Shown here: piece by piece, positions 4,522-7,705 of the stretch
Numbering within the stretch: position 1 is the first letter of the stretch
Layout: every line of letters begins with the position of its first letter
NCBI GenBank assembly: GCA_003215695.1
Contig: QCJZ01000008.1
Coordinates: forward strand, 1-37,217
Origin: Prochlorococcus sp. AG-409-J03
Lineage (GTDB): Bacteria > Cyanobacteriota > Cyanobacteriia > PCC-6307 > Cyanobiaceae
Direction of reading: 5' to 3'
Length of the DNA: 37,217 nucleotides
Made by a program: the position numbers and the translations under genes
The notes under the pieces: generated by a model
Told to the model about the DNA's origin: nothing
Database searches by the model: none
What the model saw: the letters and a program-made list of their open reading frames with translations, nothing else

Positions 4522-5049
4522 ATGACTGAATCTAAAGAAACACTTATGCAAAGGTGGGCTGTGAAAACAGTCTCAGACCCAACTGTTGGTAATCTTCAAA
4601 CCCCAGTCAATAGTGGTTGGTTTACCAAAATGGTTATTAATAATCTTCCTGTTTATAGAGAGGGACTATCACCTAATTTCAGAGGTCTCGAGACAGGAGC
4701 AATTTTTGGTTATTTACTCTATGGACCATTTTCGATGACTGGTCCTCTAAGAAATACTGACTTTGCTTTAACAGCTGGTTTGCTTGGTGGAGTGGGAGCT
4801 ATTCAAATAATGACAGCCCTTTTTATTCTTTATAATGCCCCAGGTAAGGCTCCAAATGTTCAACCTCCCGATGCAACAGTAGATAACCCTCCTTCTGATT
4901 TATTTACCAGAGCCGGATGGAATGATTTTACAAATGGTTTTTGGTTAGGTGGAACTGGAGGTGTGGTTTTTGCTTGGTTGTTAATTGGTACTTTGCATCT
5001 AGATACTGTACTACCTTTGATAAAGGAATATCATTTACTAGGAGCTTGA
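4522..5049 (+). CDS. psaL: Photosystem I reaction centre subunit XI (PsaL)
   Basis: The 175-residue product is PsaL. Near residue 52 it has the conserved stretch [13 protein letters not shown], followed by G-P-F and a hydrophobic helix. A polar stretch with [14 protein letters not shown] comes next, then a C-terminal helix. PsaL binds chlorophyll and carotenoid and forms the core of the PSI trimer interface in the thylakoid membrane. It follows psaI directly and is followed by a strong intrinsic terminator. It points toward psaAB, from which it is separated by a partial duplicate of the psaB 3' end. The ATG at 4522 fits the family N-terminus. Confidence 0.95.
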
Positions 5050-5074
5050 ATCCTTTCTCTAGAAGAATTTAATT

Positions 5075-5102
5075 AAAAAGCCCCTTCAATAAGGGGCTTT
5101 TT
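5075..5102 (+). terminator. Intrinsic terminator after psaL
   Basis: A perfect 12-bp stem (5075-5086 pairing with 5091-5102) with a CAAT loop ends in five T residues. The arms read A-rich then GCCCC, and GGGGC then T-rich. It lies 25 bases after the psaL stop and should end psaI-psaL transcription before it runs into the psaB copy. The A-rich left arm means it could also act in the other direction. Confidence 0.85.
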
Positions 5103-5170
5103 AATTCGCTAAAATATTTAGTGCAATTGGCTGATATTTTTAAAAAGCTTGAACTGAGATTCATTTATTT

Positions 5171-5379
5171 TGTTCTTTTGATTGGAAGCTTGTTATAGAT
5201 TTATCCGAACTTACCTGAAGTAGATGCGATAACAAAGGCTCCAAAGGTTACAAAGTTTCCAACTGTGAAATGGGTTAAACCAACTAATCGTGCTTGGACA
5301 ATGGATAATGCAACAGGCTTATCTCTCCAACCAACTAAATTAGCTATTGGTGTTCTTTGATGAGCCCAAACAAGAGTTT
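5171..5379 (-). pseudogene. Duplicated 3' end of psaB (209 bp, identical copy)
   Basis: Positions 5171-5379 are identical base for base to 5447-5655 (offset 276). The second stretch contains the last 58 codons and the stop of psaB plus 30 bases beyond it. The copy therefore holds a headless C-terminal fragment of PsaB, with its stop at 5201-5203 and no start codon or ribosome-binding site. It lies beyond the psaB terminator, between the converging psaL and psaB genes. The outer end of the copy begins inside what is one arm of the terminator stem in the authentic copy. Perfect identity implies a recent event, ongoing gene conversion, or an assembly error. It is not expected to make protein. 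Confidence 0.9.
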
Positions 5380-5421
5380 TTATAGATCATCCTTTTAAAT
5401 ATTAGTATTTGTTCCCATAAA

Positions 5422-5455
5422 AAAAGAACACTGCTTATAAAGACAGTGTTCTTTT
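5422..5455 (-). terminator. Intrinsic terminator of psaA-psaB
   Basis: A perfect 12-bp stem is formed by 5422-5433 and 5444-5455 with a 10-base loop. Read on the minus strand it is followed by a run of seven T residues. It lies about 20 bases after the psaB stop. Its gene-proximal arm, on the right in plus-strand coordinates, includes the outer end of the duplicated segment, so the duplicate at 5171 carries only part of one arm and cannot rebuild the hairpin. Confidence 0.85.
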
Positions 5456-5655
5456 GATTGGAAGCTTGTTATAGATTTATCCGAACTTACCTGAAGTAGA
5501 TGCGATAACAAAGGCTCCAAAGGTTACAAAGTTTCCAACTGTGAAATGGGTTAAACCAACTAATCGTGCTTGGACAATGGATAATGCAACAGGCTTATCT
5601 CTCCAACCAACTAAATTAGCTATTGGTGTTCTTTGATGAGCCCAAACAAGAGTTT
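5447..5655. repeat. Authentic member of the 209-bp direct repeat, inside psaB
   Basis: This is the copy of the direct repeat that belongs to the intact gene. It spans the psaB terminator right arm from 5447, the stop at 5477-5479 and the final 58 codons. The other copy is at 5171-5379 in the same orientation, with 67 bases between them. The match breaks at T/G on the left side (5170 versus 5446) and T/C on the right side (5380 versus 5656). Confidence 0.95.
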
Positions 5656-7705
5656 CGATAAGTTCTTGCCAGTACCCTCTCCAAGAGATGAGGAACATAA
5701 ATCCAGTCGCCCAAATGAGATGACCAAATAAGAACATCCAAGCCCATGGAGATAAAGCATTTACACCAAATGGGTTATATCCATTGATTAGCTGAGAACT
5801 ATTTAGCCATAGATAATCTCTAAACCAACCCATTAAATAGGTACCAGATTCATTGAATTGAGCGGTATTACCCATCCAAATTGCTAGATGTTTCCAATGC
5901 CAATAGAAGGTAATCCAAGCAATAGTATTTAAGGCCCAGAACATTGCTAAATAAGTAGCGTCCCAAGAAGAACTATCACAAGTACCACCACGGCCGGGTC
6001 CATCACATGGGAAAGCAAATCCTAAATCCTTTTTATCTGGAATTAGTTTTGTTCCTCTAGCATCAAGAGCACCCTTGATAAGAATCAAAGCAGTTGTATG
6101 TAGTCCTAGTGCAATCGCATGGTGAACTAAGAAATCTGCAGGTCCAATAGGTAAGAAATTGGTTAGTGCATCTGGTCTATTGATCATGTCCATCCAGTAG
6201 TGATTACCTGGCATGGAATTTGCAGCTATAGATGCAGAACTTGATGCATTTGCTAGCAACGCATTAAATCCATACATCATTTTTCCACTAGCAGCCTGTG
6301 CGAACTGTGCAAATACTGGTTCTATAAGAATCTGTTTTTCAGGTGTGCCAAAGGCTACAACTACATCGTTGTGAACATAAATTCCAAGAGTATGGAAGCC
6401 TAGGAGCATTGTTACCCAACTTAAGTGGCTAATTAAGGCTTCTTTTGTACTAAGGATTCTTGCTAGAACATTGTCTTTATTAAGCTCTGGATCATAATCT
6501 CTGACAAAGAAAATTGCTCCGTGAGAGAACGCACCAACCATCAAGAACATTGCTATGTATTGATGATGGGTATATAGAGCTGACTGAGTTGTGTAATCCC
6601 TTGCGATAAACGCATATGAAGGAAGAGCACCCATATGCTGGGCGACCAAACTACAAGCTACACCTAAAGAAGCGAGTGCTAGTCCAAGTTGAATATGGAG
6701 TGAATTGTTAACTGTCTCGAATAGTCCATTGTGCTTGATACCGAAATAACCCTTATGTGGATCTTTTGGGTGACTTGTATTGTGGGCTTCAACGATTTCT
6801 TTAAGGCTATGTCCAATACCAAAGTTAGTCCTATACATATGGCCTGCAATTATAAATACAACTCCTATAGCCAAATGATGGTGAGCAATATCTGTTAGCC
6901 AAAGTGATTCACTTTGAGGATGAAGTCCACCTAAGAATGTAAATATCGCTGTACCAGCTCCTTGAGTAGTTCCAAAAACCGCATCAAGTGAATCAGGGTT
7001 TTGAGCATAAGCTCCCCAATTACCAGAGAAAAATGGAGTTAGACCTTCTGGATGAGGCATAACAGTTAACCAGTTATCCCAGCCAACATGTATTCCTCTT
7101 GATTCAGGGATAGCTACGTGAATTAAGTGACCAGTCCAAGCAATACTGCTGAATCCAAAAAGAACAGCTAAGTGATGGTTTAACTGAGATTCTGCATTTT
7201 TAAACCATGCTAATGAGGGTCTGTATTTAGGCTGAAGATGAAGCCATCCAGCAAACAATAACCAGCAGACAAGGATGTTCATAAAGATTGCACCCTGGAA
7301 AAGCTGCTCATTAGTTCTCATGCCAATTGTGTACCACCAGTGGTATAAGCCGGAGTAAGCAATATTGACTGGAGAAGTTGCTCCTGCCTGAGTCAGTGCA
7401 TCAGTAAGACCTTGTCCAAAATGAGGGTCCCAAATTGCATGAGCAATTGGACGAGTATGAGTTGGATCTAGAACCCATTGCTCAAAGTTTCCTTGCCAAG
7501 CAATGTGAAAAAGATTTCCTGCCACCCAAAGACCAATGATGGCTAAGTGACCAAAATGTGTAGAGAAGAGTTTTTGATATAACTGTTCCTCTGTCATACC
7601 GTCATGACTTTCGAAGTCATGAGCGGTAGCTATGCCGTACCAGATTCTTCTGGTTGTAGGGTCTTGAGCAAGACCCTGACTAAAAGATGGAAATTTAGTT
7701 GCCAT
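5477..7705 (-). CDS. psaB: Photosystem I P700 apoprotein A2 (PsaB)
   Basis: The 742-residue product has the full length of PsaB. It binds the P700 chlorophyll pair with PsaA, most of the antenna chlorophylls, and half of the F-X iron-sulfur cluster. The F-X loop [12 protein letters not shown] is present with ligands Cys567 and Cys576. Many paired histidines in hydrophobic helices (H-H-H-L-A-I, L-N-H-H-L-A) are the expected chlorophyll ligands. It starts at ATG 7703-7705, 21 bases after psaA, so the two form one operon. The 3' end is duplicated exactly just downstream. It ends at the terminator 5422-5455. Confidence 0.99.

Follow-up and report, generated by a model that had tools for sequence, protein, structure and literature searches.

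Why should a streamlined Prochlorococcus genome keep a second, partial copy of psaB directly beside the gene itself? Partial copies of an essential and highly conserved gene are unexpected in such a genome, and a duplicated psaB 3′ end was noticed by inspection of the window, the whole 37,217-nucleotide stretch of Prochlorococcus sp. AG-409-J03 DNA analysed here. The preliminary description offered several explanations, including recent duplication, maintenance by gene conversion, the passage of a mobile element, exchange with a cyanophage, and an error of assembly, and these are weighed below against the same junction in related genomes.

The repeat at the psaL-psaB junction

The features of the junction are listed in Table 1. 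Both psaL and psaB are intact and convergent; the reading frame at 4522–5049 is one that we take to be psaL from its family and from its naming in the preliminary description. Self-alignment of the window shows the outer and native segments to be identical at 209 of 209 positions in direct orientation (E 7e-109), with 67 nt between them (5380–5446), exactly as had been described, and an identity of this length is, as judged from the alignment, far beyond chance. A repeat search of the whole window (seed 15, minimum 30) yields two families of direct repeats; this is the longer one (5171–5384 and 5447–5660, 214 nt, 99%), and the other reflects the homology between psaA and psaB. The outer copy comprises the last 176 nt of psaB with its stop codon (5201–5379) and the 30 nt past the stop (5171–5200), which reach one arm of the psaB hairpin, so that the composition first assigned to the unit holds. 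Within the source assembly (910 kb in 67 contigs, ∼55% complete) the segment has two matches, both of them the copies in the window.

Table 1. Features of the psaL-psaB junction, in window coordinates.
Feature	Position	Strand	Basis or remark
psaL, convergent neighbour	4522..5049	+	ORF of 175 aa; aligns with psaL of the relatives
psaL terminator hairpin, terminator-like on both strands	5071..5106		Minus strand, stem of 16 pairs; a shorter stem is predicted on each strand
Breakpoint marking the loss of the outer terminator with neighbouring spacer (about 120 bp absent compared to G007)	5170..5171		Comparison with L004 (G007)
Outer (partial) psaB tail copy: last 176 nt, stop, 30 nt downstream	5171..5379	-	Sequence, repeat search, self-alignment
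Duplication junction (TTATAGAT...) and inner spacer	5380..5421		Identical junction bases after GAGTTT in G004 and G007
psaB terminator hairpin, arms AAAAGAACACTG / CAGTGTTCTTTT	5422..5455	-	Read from the sequence; most relatives show matching arms
Native counterpart of the outer copy, at the psaB 3′ end	5447..5655	-	Sequence, repeat search, self-alignment
psaB, 742 aa, intact	5477..7705	-	ORF

The psaB hairpin is missing from the list returned by the terminator scan, its 10-nt loop being longer than the scan allows. The junction spans 427 nt in the window and 547 nt in the corresponding locus of G007 (L004); the sequences flanking the window's gap match L004 on both sides, and about 120 nt including the outer terminator are absent. 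The loss of this segment explains why only a single terminator arm was seen in the preliminary description.

Tail copies in related genomes

Alignment of the same interval from relatives, as proposed with the preliminary description, was carried out over 41 genomes of the genus, from a group that is presumably the low-light clade LLI. The region was matched in 35 and not in six; G040 is left out because its match is only 40 nt long and psaB is absent from the fetched stretch, leaving 34 genomes with a readable junction at which the two genes face each other (seven of the 41 are not readable there). A psaB tail copy is present at the same place in nine of these 34: G000 (the window), G003, G004, G007, G014, G027, G031, G033 and G034. 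Among the sequences compared, the copy is recurrent and polymorphic across the genus, and in the DNA scanned it is confined to the psaL-psaB pair, a pattern that was overlooked when the window was first read.

Three of the carriers, G003, G004 and G007, are single contigs that are 99–100% complete, and two of them (G004 and G007) have the exact junction bases of the window. These genomes bear directly on the possibility that the copy is an assembly or amplification artefact of the source genome, whose assembly is fragmentary (67 contigs) and in which short reads would have difficulty with an exact repeat of 209 bp. The junction bases GAGTTTTTATAGAT recur in G004 and G007, which no artefact would bring about, and G003, also a single contig, carries a copy that has diverged; since single-contig genomes have this structure too, we consider an assembly error very unlikely. 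Assembly could nonetheless have sharpened the exact identity of the window's two copies, and we caution that short-read and single-cell assemblies may misread the psaL-psaB junction.

The organization of the copies is similar in most carriers, with the outer copy followed by its own terminator and then by a stretch of spacer homologous to the inner spacer. At seven loci (L004, L005, L006, L007, L008, L011 and L033) the copy spans the psaB tail, the terminator and the adjoining spacer in that order, as head-to-tail copies of one contiguous host segment, and likeness or a recognisable relic reaches into the terminator in eight of the nine psaB-copy genomes. This arrangement in the relatives fits the prediction of a plain tandem duplication. 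The window itself retains only the tail part of the duplicated unit; the outer copy of G014 also lacks one terminator arm, and neither G000 nor G014 has an intact outer terminator. Start-to-start distances of the psaB copies range from 235 to 381 nt. The 646-nt gap of G011 (L034) contains a further weak psaB-tail match (50/66; score 44, with shuffled sequences reaching 29 at most), which may be the remains of a heavily decayed copy and is left out of the count. We also note that, past the psaB terminator, carriers have a spacer like that of one or another copy-free genome (G032 in the case of G000, G019 in that of G004 and G007; L003, L005, L010, L013), which hints at exchange between strains.

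The same junction also contains copies of the psaL tail in place of that of psaB, in G037 and G038 (two more of the 34) and in the L052 record. Likeness to the psaL tail is 164/206 nt in L031 (G037), 156/157 in L020 (G038) and 163/164 in L052, and these tails are duplicated together with adjoining sequence at start-to-start distances of 243–269 nt.

Mobile elements and phages as conceivable sources

Integrative elements are known at the 3′ ends of other genes, and direct copies of the target tail are their expected remains. The copy could in principle be the scar of such an element, or of a satellite, that attached at the psaB 3′ end carrying a replacement tail, and the preliminary description had raised its integration and departure. 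No integrase or insert lies between the genes at any of the 34 junctions, which at 228–646 nt have no room for one. Past the terminator of the copy lies sequence homologous to the spacer past the native terminator, and spacer homology on both sides fits plain tandem duplication; the copies match their own native tails rather than a foreign one; and duplicated psaL tails occur at this place too. We regard an element scar as highly improbable.

Recombination with a psaAB-carrying cyanophage, which had been suggested too, finds a potential donor in phage P-TIM68, which carries psaB, and two viral contigs encode a relative. However, the P-TIM68 psaB DNA, the nearest from a phage, is only 77.9% identical over 357 nt, whereas copy and host tail are 100% identical, which places the copy nearer to host than to phage psaB. 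The viral psaB-related proteins are 80–81% identical, and neither of the two viral loci has a psaB tail copy. We give practically no credence to a phage origin.

Junction types and relationships among the copies

The positions at which the copies are joined fall into a small number of types. First, a breakpoint in psaB is common to seven of the nine copies within a few bases, the psaB sequence GAGTTTC[A/G/T]ATA being linked to the word ATAGATAATC of the spacer; G031 is one of these seven and is altered around the join. Short words are shared by the two parent sites, TCTATA in G027 and TCAATA in several copy-free relatives (e.g. L015, L017 and L019). Secondly, G033 and G034 break at other points, giving at least three junction types, the psaL copies apart; the bases TCT are shared at the G033 junction, and the G034 junction has no clear short homology. 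Thirdly, G000, G004 and G007 have two join bases in common that are absent from their own parent sites, and these private bases favour, as far as the sequence goes, common descent or transfer for those three.

Each of the nine copies is nearest to the native psaB tail of its own genome, likeness within genomes exceeding that between genomes, although for G004 and G007 there is a tie, between these two and G019, and the margin for G003 is a single base. The copies of G003 and G014 have diverged from their native tails (11 differences in 177 positions and 8 in 178, respectively), and homogenisation is thus not constant. In G007 the tail and terminator are identical at 244 of 244 positions, compared to nine differences in 28 columns of spacer (Fisher p 3.5e-10); this contrast, like the join bases common to G000, G004 and G007, may mean that copies have an earlier origin than their likeness implies, but recombination replacing the spacer with that of another strain could equally be its cause.

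The presence of the copy is scattered over the tree without phylogenetic signal. Parsimony on a joint psaL and psaB tree requires nine changes for nine carriers (shuffle mean 8.1), with eight on the psaB tree and nine on the psaL tree, no better than shuffled labels, on trees that draw on about 1.7 kb of DNA subject to recombination and in which several nodes are weak. Nearest relatives are often copy-free, as seen for G002, G019 and G012 compared to G007, G004 and G031, at divergences of 2.0–2.8%. A single ancient origin with few losses was considered and finds no support, there being as many parsimony changes as copies.

A probable hotspot of duplication, homogenisation and loss

We think it probable that the psaL-psaB junction is a local hotspot of tandem duplication at short homologies, followed by homogenisation and loss, and that the copy in the window is one case of this. 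The outer copy is the remnant of a tandem duplication in the chromosome, its unit of roughly 270 bp running from the psaB 3′ end through the terminator into the first part of the spacer. The join links a position some 180 nt ahead of the end of the psaB stop to one in the spacer past the terminator, at a short shared word (TCAATA or TCTATA). We infer that tail duplications form repeatedly at this convergent junction or pass between strains by homologous recombination, either of the two routes being compatible with the present data, and that the copies are then homogenised with the native gene by gene conversion, and decay or are lost by crossover between the copies. In the window a later deletion removed the outer terminator. 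Strong convergent transcription together with the two hairpins may, at a guess, underlie the hotspot. The scattered presence and absence of the copies would be an indirect sign of their instability.

Several points weigh against the hotspot reading: the private join bases of G000, G004 and G007, the G034 junction, the weak nodes of the trees and the two diverged copies, together with the possibility of selection taken up below. Independent recent duplications would likewise place each copy nearest to its own tail. The perfect identity in the window was earlier ascribed to recency, gene conversion or an assembly error, and it is compatible with the first two, of which homogenisation is now favoured. 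It was also proposed that crossover between the copies would delete the psaB terminator. This applies to the window, whose outer copy retains a single hairpin arm, but not to relatives with both terminators (e.g. L004, L005, L006 and L008), in which crossover would instead restore the single-copy state.

Possible functions of the copy

Tandem repeats this short would be expected to collapse, so that their presence in nine of 34 genomes might instead mean selection. One such alternative is that the copy is a selected RNA module, in which read-through from psaL, or an unrecognised promoter, would give an RNA with the psaB tail in antisense and ending at the psaB hairpin, or in which the copy would serve as a spare 3′ end for psaB read-through. 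A cis antisense RNA to psaB (asMED4_17331) was reported in MED4 (PMC2518516), a strain outside the set of junctions compared here. Copies are common in the genus, and the outer terminator of G003 (L007) has changed in sequence and can still be written as a candidate hairpin, CCAGCAAAAA / TTTTTGCTGG, which has perhaps arisen through compensating change. However, two carriers (G000 and G014) have no intact outer terminator, and the nearest relatives of others are without a copy at only 2.0–2.8% divergence. A sigma-70-type scan of 4900–5800 finds no promoter-like site, compared to a mean of 2.9 in shuffled sequences, a result that does not exclude a promoter; membership of a known RNA family was also considered, and the window has no Rfam match. 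We consider a selected RNA module unlikely.

A broader version of the argument, slightly more doubtful still, is that the convergent photosystem I end acts as a reversible module, with psaB or psaL tail-plus-terminator copies gained and lost rapidly under selection on the 3′ ends of these highly used transcripts and supplying either a further 3′ end or an RNA antisense to the end of psaB. What would then distinguish strains is a structural switch at a gene that is otherwise invariant. The damage to frame or terminator in the copies of G003, G014 and the window speaks against a required product, and most likely the copy has neither a protein product nor a required function.

Comparison with known systems and with other loci

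Tandem duplications with short junctions consist of direct adjacent copies joined at a few shared bases, are unstable, and are kept alike by recombination. Microhomology-mediated tandem duplication in bacteria is treated in PMC12607827. The psaB copies resemble these duplications in being direct and adjacent with few shared bases at the join, but differ in that the unit at psaB or psaL is only 235–381 bp, consists of a gene tail and terminator, and recurs at one gene pair genus-wide. The greater likeness within than between genomes is that of concerted evolution by gene conversion; unlike conversion between duplicated genes, one of the two partners at psaB is only a fragment, non-coding and adjacent to an essential gene. 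A second gene 3′ end just downstream is also produced by integrases, but the 34 junctions have neither element nor integrase, and the tandem unit includes host spacer. Tandem duplication and gene conversion are known processes, and we found no account of a psaB tail copy, nor of a recurrent tail-only case at photosystem I genes, in the literature searched, which is weak evidence of absence as subscription journals were mostly uncovered. The fast gain and loss without phylogenetic signal would make this junction a natural gauge of tandem duplication, gene conversion and collapse on a local scale, and raises the question of what sets the convergent psaL-psaB pair apart.

Searches beyond the junction address how special it is. 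A scan of 754 gene tails from the window, 400 kb of G004 and 20 kb spanning psaB in 20 further genomes (ORFs of at least 60 aa, 1,000 nt downstream, at least 55 bits, match within 60 nt of the stop) gives 11 rows, which are eight psaB tails and three spurious ORFs on the same copies; no tail copy of another gene appears among the 754, in a scan that misses decayed or distant copies and included no psaL-copy genome. In a search of 151 genomes directed at other genera, 103 matched (six of them Prochlorococcus) and 48 gave no match; none of the 97 matching genomes of other genera has a second psaB tail, with psaB tails only being searched and at most four candidates per genome scored, at E values up to 1e-6. 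Where G001 and G043 give a second hit, it falls in a stretch common to psaA. The 62 loci L056–L117 have no psaB tail copy, in some cases with short downstream DNA.

We also considered whether close direct repeats are a general feature of these genomes, and rejected this: elsewhere in 437,217 bases (the window and 400 kb of G004) they lie within ORFs or between neighbouring paralogues, with the exceptions of short repeats in L122 and L127, which we take to be hli-like small genes, and one 51-nt repeat in L123. Separately, several ORFs of G004 contain long in-frame internal repeat arrays (L129, 13054–13926 and 16495–17399; L126, 4099–10339; L132, 9784–10514), some of them less than 10 kb from psaB.
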